Assembly: GCA_963575645.1 (NCBI GenBank)
Contig: OY754466.1
Span: forward strand, 35,000,001 to 35,064,000
Direction: 5' to 3'
From: Xanthostigma xanthostigma
Lineage: Eukaryota > Arthropoda > Insecta > Raphidioptera > Raphidiidae
Length of the DNA stretch: 64,000 bases
Shown here: positions 1,485 to 44,208 of the stretch, piece after piece
Numbering within the stretch: the first letter of the stretch is position 1
Layout: the number at the start of each line of letters is the position of its first letter
The notes under the pieces: model-generated
What the model saw: the letters and a program-made list of their open reading frames with translations, nothing else
The model's database searches: none
What the model was told of the DNA's origin: nothing
Program-made: the position numbers and the translations under genes

Positions 1485-2558
1485 CTATATGTACAAAATT
1501 TCAACCTTTTATCGTCCAGTAAATTCAGAGAAAAACATTATGGATAGACAGACACACGGGAGTGATTCTGAAAGGGTTACATTTTTTTAACGGAAGAACG
1601 GAACCAAAAGTATATATTCTTCTCAAAAAGTAAATTATCGAAATTGTTTTTAAAAATTAAAAATACTGCGTCTGGTATCTACACAGCATCTATGTGATAT
1701 ATATGCATTTTTAGGATTGCTTAGAAGCTACGAACCGTTATAATTTTGTCAAATCCGTCCGTCTGTCCGTATGTAGTCTTGTAATTCTTTCAATTTTTGA
1801 TTTCTAGAGATACATTTGTATAAATACATATGTTTCTTAAAAATTGTGCCGAACTGGTATCATACTTGTAAATAAATTATTTTGTAGGTGCATGTATTTT
1901 TTTCAATTATTAATAAATTACTAGATAAAATTGGACAGTTCAAAGACGAAATATTTTGAACAAAATAAAAGAAACATGAAGAAGCATAATATGTTTATGA
2001 TAAAACCAAATATAAATAATATCTAAAATATACTTCCAATCGTCATAGTGGCCTTTAAAATTATGTAGGTGACCCTTTTAATAGCTAGGTACTTCCTAAA
2101 TCCTACTTTTTTAAGTTCTCAGTTGTTTTTATAAAGATACAAACATTTAACCCTTTCATGACCGGTTACTGATGATGTCTATATTTCAAAAACAGTAAAA
2201 ATTGGAAATCTGTCAGATTTGAATGAAAGTGTATTTTTATCACATTTTAGCGAAAGTTATGACATGCAGCATATATATCGTAGAAAATAAAATTATAAGA
2301 TATTATTTTAAATTTCGAATATAGGTATACATAGATATTTCAGAGTGCAGATGCCTGACAACTCAGATCATTAGCGTCAAGTTAATGCGATTATAATATC
2401 GCGAAGTAAGGAATACCAACAAAATTAGAAGTTTATAATTAAATCAATCAATAAATCCCCTACCATAAGTTGAGATAAACATTCAAACTATACGTTTTGT
2501 TTTGTTTCGCCAAAAATTGTTTATCAATTAATTGCAACTAGCTTAGGCAACGAATAAT
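1485..2558. other. Intergenic DNA, a possible TE-tail fragment only
   Basis: No gene seen. The phrase CCGTCCGTCTGTCCGTATG near 1760 resembles the tails of RTE/Helitron-type insect repeats. The rest is unstructured AT-rich sequence. Confidence 0.35.
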
Positions 2559-3741
2559 TCTAGATGGAAAAGTCGAAAGCAGAACATTTGACTTAGGAAC
2601 TTTGTTTGGACTAGTTAGGAGATAAACATACTAAAAGTCCTTACCCCTCCGAGGTACGCCCGAAGAAGGGGAGCACAAAGAAGGTCCCGTTTTTTGGTAT
2701 TTTGCTTTCATCTCGAAAACGGTACGTCGTACGAAATTTTGTTGGAATACATAATGAAAGCTGATAAAATTCTCTACAACTTTAGCTTTCACACTTTTTA
2801 TCTATCTCCAATCTTTGCTTAGCTATGAGCTCCGAAAAATGGTCGATTTTCAAAAATGTGTTAAATTCTCTGTAGCACATTGTAACAATACGAATTTGTC
2901 AAAATCATTTCGTATCGCTCATCCACACTATTAAAAACACCCACACACTATTAAAAAATAACATAAGCTGGGAGTACCTCCACACAGGGCCCTCTTTCCC
3001 ACTGGGCACTCTGGCACGTGCCCAGGGCCCCGCGATCGATAGGGACCCCCTAGTTTAATGGTATACTAAGTACCTAAACTGTTTTAAACAAAAATCATCA
3101 GTGAACTATTTTTCATATACCTACTTATTTTTTTTGTGTCCTTCATGTTAAAATTGGGAACGTGATCCTTTTAAATATATGCATTTTATATCACATTCCT
3201 CGACTTAGAATCTAGAACCTAGTTTATCTATTTTCTTTGTCTATTCTAACAAAATAGTGCTCTGTTAAGGTCATAGGGGCCCCATAATCCTAATGTGCCC
3301 AGGGCCTTCAATAGGTTAAAGCTTATGTTATTTTTTAATAGTGTGTGGGTGTTTTTAATAGTTTGGATGAGCGATACGAAATGATTTTGACAAATTCGTG
3401 TTGTTACAATGTGCTACAGAGAATTTAACACATTTTTGAAAATCGATCATTTTTCGACCATTTTTCGGAGCTCATAGCTAGGCAAAGATTGGAGATAGAT
3501 AAAAAGTGTGAAAGCTAAAGTTGTAGAGAATTTTATCAGCTTTCATTATGTATTACAACAAAATTTCGTACGACGTACCGTTTTCGAGATGAAAGCAAAA
3601 AACCAAAAAACGGGACCTTCTTTGTGCTCCCCCCCTTCGGGCGTACCTCAGAGGGGCAAGGACTTTTAGTATGTTTATCTCCTAACTAGTCCAAACAAAG
3701 TTCCTAAGTCAAATGTTCTGCTTTCGACTTTTCCATCTAGA
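2559..3741. mobile_element. Foldback element with ~410-bp inverted repeats
   Basis: Left arm 2559-2969 and right arm 3319-3741 are near-identical inverted copies. Both outer ends read TCTAGATGGAAAAGTCGAAA from outside inward. A TA inside the palindromic TCTAGA at each border could be a mariner-type TA duplication, but a CTAG target is equally possible. The arms carry no gene; the short ORFs are by-products. The spacer between the arms (2970-3318) looks like a separate later insertion. Confidence 0.85.
2970..3318. mobile_element. GC-richer insertion at the axis of the foldback element
   Basis: Roughly 349 bp separate the two arms of the surrounding palindrome. Near its edges are inverted GC-rich motifs, GGCACGTGCCCAGGGCCCC on the left and GGGGCCCC...GTGCCCAGGGCC on the right, as in many small hAT-like MITEs. 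I could not find a clean target duplication, so the superfamily is tentative. Confidence 0.5.
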
Positions 3742-4335
3742 TGCCCCTTATGAGCACTCATTGACTAAACTAAACTTTCACCTAACGATAAAAATCTGTC
3801 TTCTCACATTCAACCTTATGTTAGAGATCTATGGCAACGTTATATACCTACAATATAAAACATGGAAACTATGTTTAATAATAGCTCGCGAAATATTGCG
3901 AATTGATTATAATAAATTTCAAATTTAAGACTCTACTTTCGCTTATGTTAAAGCAGTTGTTATAAAGTTGTGAATCAACAGACGTTCTACCGTTTTGTAC
4001 TTTCATACATAAATAATTCACAGAGCGCGAAAGCAATGTCAGTGTCATCTCATTCCCAACCAGTTTTTGTTATTTATAGATTAGCTCCAGGGGCGTAATT
4101 AGGGTTGGCGTTGCTTGGAGCAGCTTGGGAGGTCTCCTGTCGCAGCTCTATGCGTGTGTACACCACAAACACGCGAACGAAAATACGTTATTGTTGATAA
4201 ATCAACATGATGATCAATACTGGCTTCACTGAATTATTCGAAAAATTGTTTACACCAGTAGTATACAATTGGGTGGTTACAAAACGTTTCTTATATAGAA
4301 TTATTGTAACATAACATGACAAAAGCCTGTGCTTG
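3742..4335. other. Intergenic DNA, nothing recognised
   Basis: No gene or clear repeat boundary. A CAGGGGCGTAATTAGGG string near 4087 looks like a transposon end without a visible partner. Confidence 0.35.
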
Positions 4336-4892
4336 TAAAAAAAAATCCAGCCAATTGGGCGACGGGACCATTCCAACTTAAAAAATGTTGACATTTGATT
4401 ATGATAAAGAAAATAAATTTTTTGATATCGCGTGAGGTGACGCGGGTAATGGCTAATATTCAATATGATATTTGCTATTCGTTGCCATAGTTACCTACAT
4501 AATATTTCCGAAACTATAAAGTTTAGAGTTTAGACAAAAATGTGTTTAACGAAACTGTCTTGAAAAAATAAATAGAATAATTATCCGTATGCAAAGTATA
4601 CCATTATTATATATAAAAAAATCACCGTTATAGCAAGCGCCGATTTTCCCCAAAAGCAATAGGGCTCTTAATATTTGCATACCAAACATCCTCCCAAAAT
4701 TTGGTTTCAATCCGCTCATCCGTTTGACCTGTATCGTGTTCAGACTAACAGACGTACAGAGTTTTTCCAAAAATCTGTTTTTTTAGATTCGGGGGACCTC
4801 AAAACGGAAAGATATTGTAAAATTTTTGAAAAGTGATTTTTGACCTAAACTGGTACCATTCCCCACTTGTGGGTTGGAATGGTAAAATCGCC
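4336..4892 (+). repeat. R1 dispersed repeat, copy A
   Basis: This is the first of several copies in the window of one interspersed family, here called R1. Shared landmarks are a GATATTTGCTATTCG stretch, CCGAAACTATAAAGTTTAG, CCCAAAATTTGGTTTCAAT and CGTTTGACCTGTATCGTG. Other copies are at 9233-9830 (inverted), 30668-30990, 38316-39360 (interrupted), 57660-58200 and 61665-61735. No protein is encoded. A GACGCGGGTAA-GGCTA motif resembles a Helitron 3' end, so a degenerate Helitron family is one option. Confidence 0.7.
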
Positions 4893-4912
4893 TATTGACG
4901 GTTTTATTAATA

Positions 4913-5405
4913 GACCGAGAGCTACTGAACTTTTTAGAACCTGATTTAGGCATAGAAATGACGTACCTACTTTACAATGTACCTACTTTAATCAGTGCAA
5001 ACAACGAAAATTACATTTGGCGTCACCAAGTCTAATCGTTTTTAGGGATAATCAACCACCAAATTTGCACTAGTAGGGTTGAAAACATTAACTCATTTCG
5101 AGAAGGCTGAGATTTTCACAGTATTTTAAAAGCCAGAACAAAATTCCGGTCGGAACACCCCGGCAGATTACTCTGAACATTCTTTATCTCACCCCTTCAA
5201 GGCTGTTTGCTGGGATATTCGGATTCCGAACGGAATTTTGTTCTGCCTTTTAAAATACTGTAAAAATTTCAACCTTGCTTGAGTTAACTTTTTTAACCCT
5301 TTTAGTGCATATTTAGGGATTGATTACCCCTAAAAAAGGACTAGACTTGGTGACATTTTAAAGTATGTCACTTCCATGCTTAAATCAGTTCAGTAGCTCT
5401 TGGAC
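4913..5405. mobile_element. MITE with inverted repeats and TA flanks
   Basis: Inverted ends read GACCGAGAGCTACTGAAC on the left and GTCCAAGAGCTACTGAAC inward from the right, each bordered by TA (4911-4912 and 5406-5407). Inversion extends inward through TTTAAGCATGGAAGTGACATAC-like and AAAATTCCG stretches, so the element is a long imperfect hairpin. TA flanks suggest Tc1/mariner-type mobilisation. Non-coding. Confidence 0.7.
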
Positions 5406-5463
5406 TATAATGCTTTGATATAAATTAACTGTAGTTACAGAATACCTATACCTACTATCAATA

Positions 5464-5894
5464 ATAATAATAATAAAAATAATAATAATAATACTAATGC
5501 GTTTAACGTCCGTTTCTCGACTTTATGTCATAACAGACGCCATTCGCTCCATTACTGTTTTTTTCGACAACTGCACTTCCCGTTGTTTTCTAGAATTTTT
5601 AAACCTCAACTTAATTAATGGCAATGGGCGAATGAAGGAATTCTTAGGAAATTAAGGATAAGATAGGTAAATTTTAAACATAGGAGTTTAACAGGTAATT
5701 GGCTATGGCCTTGAACAAGGAACCATCTCGATATTTATCTGGAATTATTGAGGGAAACCATGGAAAACCACAACAAGATGGCCGGTCCAGGAATTACCGT
5801 TTCTCGGCGAGAGGCAATCGGAAAAACTCCCAGCCACATCTACCCCCGCCGGGATTAAAACCCGGTACCTTCTGAATGCGAGTCTAGTGCTCTC
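5464..5894 (-). mobile_element. tRNA-derived SINE, 5'-truncated head
   Basis: Flanked by the perfect 14-bp direct repeat ACCTACTATCAATA (5450-5463 and 5895-5908), typical of LINE-driven retroposition. On the minus strand the tRNA-like head comes first, broken inside box A (GAGAGCACTAGACTCGC). A degenerate box B (GGGTTTTAATCCC) follows, then a conserved body, and an (ATT)n tail at the plus-strand left edge. Body and tail match the fuller copy at 51518-51943. The truncated box A suggests this copy cannot be transcribed by Pol III. Confidence 0.85.
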
Positions 5895-6292
5895 ACCTAC
5901 TATCAATATAATTATATGATTTGTTTTCATTGCCGTGTTTACGGCGTTTCATGAAATTAATTCACTCTACTGTGCGTAAAGAAGCTTCACGCCAACAATT
6001 TCTCACGTCATGAAATCGGAGCATTTAGCTCACTCAAAGAAGCAAAAATAGGGGAAATAATTCGTGTAAAAGCGATTTTTGGCATAGTTGTAGGGGATGG
6101 TGTCTGAAGCAACATACTCAAAGTACTGATGGATGGGGGTGGAGCTAAGGGGTGGGGGTGGCGTTAAGGTCCCCTTTTAAAGTTTTTCTTATATATCTCG
6201 TAAACGGTGGCTCATAACAAAAAAATTTTTTTACTCAAGCAATCTACATAAAATTCTCTACAAAAAAGGTCCTGTACACTTTTTCGGTGGGA

Positions 6293-7660
6293 TCAATATT
6301 GAATGACCCGTGAAGGAAAGAAGATGGTCAATAATAAAATAAAGATACAGTTCTTTGAGTAGGTATGGCATGTATTAAAAAAATTCCAATTATCTTCTAA
6401 ATCTAACATAATATCATCATCAACATCATCGTCGAGGGTGTTTTCGATTGGGGCTCCGTTAGTGCATGAGCTGGAGCATACCCCGCAAACACTGGAGCGG
6501 GCAATTCCTGCTTTCCGGCAGCCGAATCGCACCCCACACCCAGTTCTACATCGGCAAAATATGCTGTTGAGTATTGAGTCAGGTGCCACAGGATCGTTTG
6601 TTGTCACCGACTTTAATGCCATCGTCTCTTCTGGCCCAGCCCCATTGAGTAGGTGGTAGGGGCTTGCTGAGCCATTGTTGTATCTGTAAAAGATGTAATA
6701 AGATCAACGTAAGTATTTAGCTCAAATATATATTTAATATATATTTGACAACTTCTGTGGTTAATGATACCTGTAGGTACACTCTCAACGAGTGCTGCTT
6801 CGAAGCTTCTCTGGTAGGACGAAGAGGTGCCTGATCTGATTTCGGATTCATTGATGCTCTCAAAAAAGCTGAGTATCGTAATTTATTTAGATTTTGTTCC
6901 TGGTTAGACGCTTTGCAAATGGCCAGAAACAGTTTCTCGCCGGCCTGTTCAATACTCTCAGGTGATGTTGAAGGCTCATTAAAAATGTCTGAGATTTTTT
7001 GGGTCAGGTCTGGTTTATCCGTGAATAGCTTAGCAATTCCCACTTTGCTCTTTCCATGGATTGCAGTGGTGGTGTCGCATCCGGAGAAGCTGTGGAGAAG
7101 GAGAATTGTCTTGGCAAGTGGAAACTGTTGAAGTTGTCGCACTGAAAACAATTTGGTTTCCACCTTTCCACGCCCTGGTTTCATAAAGAACACGTTAATA
7201 TTTGGTGGAGCCAATCCCATGAGGAGGACTATCAAGTCGATATTTTCCCCAACTATTACAACAGTTGGATGGATGGCAGCCTTATCCAACCCGCATCTGA
7301 CAATAGTACCATCAGCATCTCCTGTTGCAACAGTTGTTTCAATCCCTGCTGCTGTCATTTTCTCGGTGAGGAACTGAATCAGCCTCGTTTTATTTTTTTC
7401 GTTGTCGAGGAAATGCTCCTGTTTAACAGTGATGATCGTATTTTCGTTACAGTTAATATCAACCGACGTTTTAGTCAGACCTCGTCGTTTCTGCTCTGCT
7501 CGTTAGTGCTGTTGACATCACTGTAACCATCAAAAACCACCATATAGTTTGGACCGTAATGTTTCTGGACGTAGGTAATGTTTTGATGGCAAATCGTAGA
7601 AACGTTGGAGGACGGGTTCCATTTCATACTCCACGTGTGCGTCGTGATTGGTTGGCGGTG
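6293..7660 (-). pseudogene. Decayed FEN1/XPG-like (PIN superfamily) protein gene with Cys-rich tail
   Basis: Read on the minus strand, the conserved segments come in order. The stretch YVQKHYGPNYMVVFDGY lies near 7550. Next is a block with GDADGTIV and VIVGENIDLIVLLMGLAP (about 7310-7200), like an XPG-I acidic core. HSFSGCDTTTAIHGKSKVG (about 7090-7030) recalls the FEN1/XPG GCDY helix-turn-helix segment. A splice site follows: CAG|GTATCA donor at 6771/6770 and TTTTACAG acceptor, exon resuming at 6683. This is an 87-nt phase-0 intron that joins VYLQ to IQQWL. The tail has CRCRTGCGVRFGCRKAG and more cysteines (6570-6490). Two frameshifts are visible: a 5-bp tandem duplication (GCAGA twice) near 7490 and a one-base slip near 6620. 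The N-terminal part is missing. I recall similar proteins in arthropod and cnidarian genomes, but nuclease activity is inference. Confidence 0.62.
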
Positions 7661-7674
7661 ACCTTGCCGCCAGT

Positions 7675-8357
7675 GAGAGATGATATAAAATACTAGGAAC
7701 AGTTATTTTGGAACGGTTTCGAACGAGGAACAGATTGGAACAGTTGTCAGTATAATAAAATACCTGTTCCGGGCTGTTCCAATGCTTCGACTGTTCCGAA
7801 TAACATAACGGGCGTTCTTCTGCATAAAATAAACATTCTCCGTTCCCGTTGTCAATTATTATTGTACCTACTTTGCAAACTGCAACAGTTATGCTCTTCA
7901 CCTACGCCTAGCGTACATTGTACGTAAAGTCGATTTTAGTATCACACCATCACATTAACATGCGTCGCAAAGTTTCAGACAAAACTGGACGGCTTATTAA
8001 TTTTATATTACATACGCGAATAATATTGAACTGTGGTGAAATAATATTATTTGATTTTGTCATAGTATAAGCATTCTGCAGAACAACTGTTACTTACATT
8101 CTGTAAAAGTATGTTTTTAATAATTAGGTACCTTAAATTATTAAACTTGAATAATAGAATTAATTCACGAAAAAATACAAATCATACACATTTCATAATT
8201 TGAAATTTTTATAAGTTGCATGTTACTAGCTATTCCGAGAATGTCAAGGTTCCAACGTTGGAACTGTTAAAAAGTAACAGGTTTTTGGAACTGTTCCGTA
8301 AGCGGAACAGGAACGGAACGGAACTGTTATTAAAAAATAACAGTTTGTACCACCTCT
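7675..8357. mobile_element. hAT-like MITE nested in the FEN/PIN-like element
   Basis: A 683-bp insertion bounded by the perfect 8-bp repeat CCGCCAGT (7667-7674 and 8358-8365). Ends are AGAGATGATATAAAATAC on the left (after one extra G) and, inward from the right, AGAGGTGGTACAAACTG. GGAACAG/CTGTTCC motifs are dense just inside both ends, as in the subterminal transposase-binding repeats of hAT elements. It has no transposase. Confidence 0.8.
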
Positions 8358-8731
8358 CCGCCAGTCCCTTGCACCCGACGACGCTACAGAAACGTGCCGT
8401 GTGCGCCAGCAGTTTGAACCAATACGTAAAAACGCGAGAATTGAGCATAATTAACTTTTCTTCTTTGATATCTCGTTAAATATTAATCCCACCGAAAAAG
8501 TGTACAGGACCTTTTTTGTAGAGAATTTTATATAGATTGCTTGAGTAAAAAATTTTTTTTGTTTTGAGCCACCGTTTACGAGATAAATAAGAAAAACTTT
8601 AAAAGGGGACCTTAACGCCACCCCCCACCCCTTAGCTCCACCCCCATCCATCACTATTTTGAGTATGTTGCTTCAGACACCCTCCCCTACAACTATGCCA
8701 AAAATCGCTTTTACACGAATTATTTCCCCTA

Positions 8732-9232
8732 TTTGGCAGTTTTTGGTCTTCGTTGATTGAACTAATTGTATAGTGTACAGACGAGTAGTTATAAAAGTAA
8801 TGATGTTTTATTATTGTTCGTTCTCTGTTAAGAAAACACGTTAACTGTATTTTTCTAAAATTACGTGCAAAGTACTAAAAATCGTAAATGCTGATGTGGA
8901 GTACCGACATCGTAATAATTAGATATCAAGTAATTCAATGTAATGTTTGTATTATTTACTTTTGCAATTAATAGTTATTATTCAGTGATGTTTGTTTATG
9001 ATTGTTCACACATGCAGGTTCTACCTACCTAAATAGTTAATTCATTACATGTGTTTAGATACAGTTAAAATATGTTAAATGTAGTCGAAGCAATGGCTGT
9101 TAAATCCAATTACTGCTGGGGTGCAGAAGGCATTGTCAGAAAATCTAATTTGACAATGATTTTAAATTTTCACCACGAATATTTCTTCAAACGAAACGCA
9201 TAGTAGAATAATAAATCGATTCTGCTCGAAAA
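8732..9232. other. Intergenic DNA, nothing recognised
   Basis: AT-rich sequence with no ORF, inverted repeat or known repeat landmark that I can support. Confidence 0.35.
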
Positions 9233-43650: not shown

Positions 43651-44208
43651 TCGATCTAAATAATACGCTATAATTTGTGTACACCTGGGCAAGCTAATGA
43701 GGGCGTTTCATGTGTTGCTTCGGAGCACAGAATAGCTCCTGAACGCAAGAACGTCTGCCATATATAGAACAAACGAGTTTTGCGGTCTGCCAGTGGCTGT
43801 TAAACCATGACTTTGATTGTGTAACTATTACACATTAAATATTGTTTAAATATGGAAAATATAATGCATTCTAAAGTAATGAAGTACCCAAGATTTTGGT
43901 TGTTCTGCAGTCGAATTCTTAGACCCTATCGATCTAAATAATACGCTATAATTTGTGTACACCTGGGCAAGCTAATGAGGGCGTTTCATGTGTTGCTTCG
44001 GAGCACAGAATAGCTCCTGAACGCAAGAACGTCTGCCATATATAGAACAAACGAGTTTTGCGGTCTGCCAGTGGCTGTTAAACCATGACTTTGATTGTGT
44101 AACTATTACACATTAAATATTGTTTAAATATGGAAAATATAATGCATTCTAAAGTAATGAAGTACCCAAGATTTTGGTTGTTCTGCAGTCGAATTCTTAG
44201 ACCCTATC
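43651..44208. repeat. Perfect 278-bp tandem duplication
   Basis: 43651-43930 and 43929-44208 are identical over 280 bases, period 278, by direct reading. The unit holds no gene or TE end that I recognise. It is either a very recent duplication in intron 3 or an assembly artefact. Confidence 0.9.

Follow-up and report, generated by a model that had tools for sequence, protein, structure and literature searches.

What kind of mobile element lies between the long inverted repeats near the start of a 64,000-nucleotide stretch of the Xanthostigma xanthostigma genome (623 Mb, 28 contigs)? The stretch, G000:C3:35000001-35064000, is hereafter called the window. The repeats enclose the remnant of a nuclease gene, and the original prediction had read the whole either as an undescribed transposon family whose own gene is a FEN/PIN-like nuclease or as a pair of miniature inverted-repeat transposable elements (MITEs) that mobilised such a gene. 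The window element is one of many young, non-autonomous copies. It is probably a cut-and-paste DNA transposon of the Academ type (AcademX-like) that has suffered an internal deletion and been amplified in trans by the protein of an intact relative. This reading builds on direct observation of the element's ends, target site duplications, copy number (a lower bound), frames and decay, on predicted folds and conserved acids, and on comparison with a full-length relative in the same genome, L029.

Borders, copies and decay of the window element

The features of the element are as follows (window coordinates).

6026..8764, minus strand (gene strand): whole non-autonomous element, 2,739 bp, TAGTTC...GAGCTA in gene orientation; borders from 20 copies
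6023..6025, no strand: target site duplication ATT, left; from flank comparison and direct reading
8765..8767, no strand: target site duplication ATT, right; from flank comparison and direct reading
8473..8764, minus strand: terminal inverted repeat on the gene's 5' side; its inner ~257 bp match the other arm at 96% identity, its outer ~35 bp imperfectly
6026..6306, plus strand: terminal inverted repeat on the gene's 3' side; from self-comparison and border alignment
7475..7627, minus strand: first part of the surviving nuclease frame, opening with the ATG at 7627 (MKWNPSS...VVFDGYSDVNST); frameshift within 7475-7502
6771..7502, minus strand: remnant nuclease core with GDAD, GENIDL (Asn replacing an otherwise invariant Asp) and SGCDTT
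6684..6770, minus strand: intron-like GT...AG stretch of 87 bp between LQ and IQQW; in the window and 20/20 fetched copies, absent from L029 at the same codon boundary
6370..6683, minus strand: second-exon remnant (approximate ends), frameshifted, with a CXC-like tail rich in Cys
7675..8357, no strand: nested insertion of 683 bp whose inverted ends are short and imperfect; 8-bp direct repeats CCGCCAGT at 7667-7674 and 8358-8365

Self-comparison placed the inverted repeats at 6046-6306 and 8473-8734 (~257 bp, 96% identity), in agreement with the near-identical repeats of ~250 bp first described. The end repeat had at least 40 scored matches in the genome among 134 candidates. Setting aside the window's own match, we fetched the 20 best-scoring of the remaining 39. 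The gene was found in all 20 of these loci and both ends in 19, so that ends and gene do occur together elsewhere in the genome, as the original prediction had proposed to check. A search of viral contigs for an exact 25-base end pattern gave 0 matches.

The borders had initially been drawn at TA dinucleotides at 6051 and 8729. When 19 other copies were compared with the window, conservation extended past both positions; these TAs are internal, and the element, whose own terminal dinucleotide is also TA, spans 6026-8764 and is flanked by ATT. Duplications were counted in the window and 19 fetched loci, leaving out L016, in which only one end was found. Identical flanks were present in 18 of these 20 copies, with a length of 3 bp in 16 and 4 bp in 2; the flanks of L019 and L028 did not match. 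Shuffling of the flank partners (2,000 shuffles) gave a mean of 1.4 matches and a maximum of 6. Because the matching bases lie outside the TA, the TA is part of the element.

The gene remnant lies on the minus strand, and the motifs reported for it (GDADGTIV, VIVGENIDLIVLL, SGCDTT and a Cys-rich tail) were all recovered. Its protein family comprised 57 matches at E<=1e-3, and the nearest named relatives were lepidopteran (Cydia pomonella and Parnassius mnemosyne). Four pieces of the window searched against Pfam gave two matches, both below the curated cut-off. The sequence of one relative, P0001, seems to run through an intron at the position of the 87-bp intron-like stretch. Another, P0018, is filed under Klebsiella pneumoniae with a longest contig of 1,111 bp and is probably contamination.

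Identity of the 20 copies to their majority sequence is 98.8-99.6%, and they share the loss of the 5' part of the gene. In a search with protein P0004, none of the rows ranked 2-62 (61 rows, 85-89% identity) starts before residue 46. Of the 62 best rows, G000:C5:19374572 alone reaches residue 1, which more distant rows at 37-41% identity also cover. The first frame is open in 5 of 20 aligned copies, the window copy not among them. Its distinct variants comprise 41 nonsynonymous changes, 7 of them stops, and 17 synonymous ones. With a per-site ratio of 0.82, these stops and so few open frames, the gene resembles a passenger under little or no selection. Across the 20 fetched loci and the window, the Asn in GE(N)xDL is universal at the DNA level (21/21; Asp in L029), and the second-exon frameshift occurs in 20/21 (exception L023; absent from L029). 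The nested insertion, a hAT-like MITE, is likewise in 20/21 copies (19/20 fetched plus the window; exception L016) and absent from L029.

Full-length relatives and their protein

L029 (G000:C5:19369001-19379000) has 275-bp inverted arms at 98% identity with a single 1,449-codon open frame between them, and its element occupies 1590-7221 (5,632 bp). Its ends are related to those of the window element. Three main blocks of the window align with it: the 5' end at 93.5%, the nuclease core at 96% and the 3' end at 92.5%. About 3.7 kb of L029 (1977-5707) has no counterpart in the window copy, which lacks the upstream part of the nuclease and the entire transposase. L029 is flanked by identical direct repeats of 67-68 bp (1522-1589 and 7221-7288) rather than by a 3-4 bp duplication, and its right end lacks the final TA.

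The L029 protein, P0058, has 1,445 amino acids; the nuclease forms its C-terminal third, and its middle resembles a DDE-type transposase. The earlier statement that no known transposase is visible therefore holds for the window copy but not for the full-length relative, whose transposase-like domain is deleted here. Similarly, the transposon's own gene does have a predicted XPG/FEN1/EXO1 fold, but the nuclease is only one part of a much larger protein. P0058 had no Pfam match at E<=10, and hence no match to a helicase family either; a single-sequence search of the PDB gave 0 matches.

Structure prediction, proposed as a check on the gene's identity, gave an EXO1/FEN1/XPG fold for the nuclease part. 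The predicted fold of the central domain is nearest to P-element, Hermes, HzTransib, ISCth4 and RAG1, an alignment list that tests mainly model residues 7-81 and 169-700; Foldseek alone returned nothing for this domain at E<=0.001. Residues D424, D598 and E832 are kept in 61/61 aligned rows, and we infer that they are the catalytic acids. Acids at D1055, D1095, D1166, D1168, D1191, D1193 and D1247 are also found in 61/61 rows (position 1166 is E in 2); we take them to be the metal-binding acids of the N and I regions of Rad2/XPG/FEN1 nucleases. The window copy has lost the first of these seven and has Asn at 1191.

P0058 had 225 relatives at E<=1e-3. Those with names among the 120 listed include arthropod sequences, a record of a rust fungus and a soft coral; the names among the matches listed include "uncharacterized," "hypothetical," "Tesmin/TSO1-like CXC" and "XPG N-terminal," and none is Academ. 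Individual relatives were P0059 from Parnassius mnemosyne (91% identity), P0109 from a record named Austropuccinia psidii (46%) and P0077 from the soft coral Dendronephthya (40%), which may reflect horizontal transfer or contamination.

Two further elements in the genome, each seen as one copy, carry frames with the motifs DNAD, FDQ, IEQ, DGG, DAD, DxDL, GCDT and FDGY of transposase and nuclease. In L030 the frame is 1,463 codons long, the inverted ends measure 449 bp (96%), the termini read TAGTAC and the flanks are GAG/GAG; in L031 the corresponding values are 1,521 codons, 1,060 bp (98%), TAGTGC and CAT/CAT. Since both share TAGT termini, a 3-bp duplication and a single large transposase-nuclease protein, this plan is wider than the family of the window element. 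The L031 inverted ends (303-1350 and 6037-7096, ~1,060 bp) extend into the 3' end of its frame. L032 is broken: its gene is split between two long open frames, and the 8 kb fetched showed no inverted ends.

We infer action in trans and the following roles for the domains. The parent type would encode one protein. Its N-terminal part, with zinc-finger-like repeats and a domain resembling a winged helix, probably serves to recognise the inverted ends of ~300 bp. The DDE domain with its P-element-like fold may cut and join with a 3-bp stagger, and the C-terminal EXO1/FEN1/XPG-like nuclease with its CXC tail probably trims flaps or branched ends during excision, integration or gap filling. The window lineage would have lost ~3.7 kb, including the transposase, and gained the nested MITE. 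Its derivatives, keeping their ends, would be amplified by an intact relative and insert with 3-bp, sometimes 4-bp, duplications.

Classification and alternative readings

The nuclease of Academ transposons is XPG-like. Among described forms, AcademX has duplications of 3 or 4 bp and AcademH of 9 or 10 bp, and duplication length seems tied to whether a nuclease or a helicase is encoded (PMC10045372). The elements studied here have 3- or 4-bp duplications in 18/20 copies of the window family and 3-bp ones in L030 and L031, L029 differing by its 67-68-bp repeat. They also have a DDD/E transposase, judged by predicted fold and D424, D598 and E832, and an EXO1/FEN1/XPG-fold nuclease, without any Pfam match, in place of a helicase; the seven acids of Rad2/XPG/FEN1 are present in full-length relatives. 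L029, at 5,632 bp, is close in size to the Academ elements known from bivalves, whose mean length is 5,565 bp (PMC10294476). Because duplications, nuclease and size fit the published description, we provisionally assign the family as AcademX-like, a likeness by description; the amplified form here is, unlike AcademX, a deletion derivative. The kind is thus probably already known, and the proposal of an undescribed family is probably wrong at that level. Among the papers listed in literature searches, none had a title or abstract opening on this family, and the whole words "Academ" and "XPG" occurred together in no paper searched.

Three other systems were compared. The P element makes an 8-bp duplication and, to our knowledge, has no nuclease; the Drosophila transposase (6pe2, 6p5a) is ~10% identical to the family here, which makes 3-bp duplications. 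Human EXO1, FEN1 and XPG are ~13% identical, and the nuclease here is fused to a transposase and a CXC tail. Kolobok elements duplicate TTAA. In Kolobok lineages a DDD/E transposase is likewise accompanied by an unrelated nuclease, but of a different fold (DEDDh, PD-D/ExK or His-Me) (PMC9587614).

Seen alone, the window, with its inverted repeats, gene remnant and no transposase, could suggest two independent MITEs flanking a captured host gene. The complete unit, however, is found repeatedly with a single duplication enclosing its two ends, which refutes a MITE pair, and the full-length element has related ends; we consider this origin practically negligible. A Tc1/mariner-like element, whose target duplication is TA, would account for the TA at both termini in nearly every copy shown, but TA was rejected as the duplication given the further matching bases outside it, and such an origin is scarcely credible. 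The nuclease might itself be the transposase, with the truncated form functional, as the presence of the truncated gene in 20/20 fetched loci and the copies with an open first frame would allow. The shared form, however, lacks the part bearing the first conserved Asp, has Asn in place of another, and carries variants that look near-neutral, and full-length relatives have a transposase-like domain with three invariant acids; we rejected this reading as very improbable.

A separate superfamily, with a P-element-fold transposase, an EXO1/FEN1-like nuclease, 3-bp duplications and TAG termini, would accord with a protein that lacks any Pfam match, with relatives never called Academ among the matches listed and with a best fold match to the P element, which makes 8-bp duplications. 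Against it stand the 3- or 4-bp duplications and nuclease of AcademX (PMC10045372) and the size of bivalve Academ elements (PMC10294476), and we regard it as unlikely. There is a similarly small chance that these elements form a lineage beyond the known Academ families. In it the transposon would bring its own flap-processing, through a covalent link between an EXO1/FEN1-like nuclease and a transposase of P-element fold, and the 67-68-bp repeat at L029 would record an unusual insertion that depended on the nuclease.

Two other repeats were observed in the window: a second pair of long inverted repeats at 2559-2969 and 3320-3741 (98% identity), perhaps a foldback element or MITE, and an exact tandem duplication of a 278-bp unit at 43651-44206.

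On the preferred, AcademX-like reading, there is nothing unusual about the window copy itself: it is non-autonomous and derives from a transposon of a known kind. Relatives of the protein turn up repeatedly among arthropod sequence records, labelled for example "uncharacterized" or "Tesmin/TSO1-like CXC," and recognising them as transposon proteins clears away a class of false host genes. The two predicted folds, one P-element-like and the other that of a flap nuclease, suggest a testable model for the action of Academ-type transposons.
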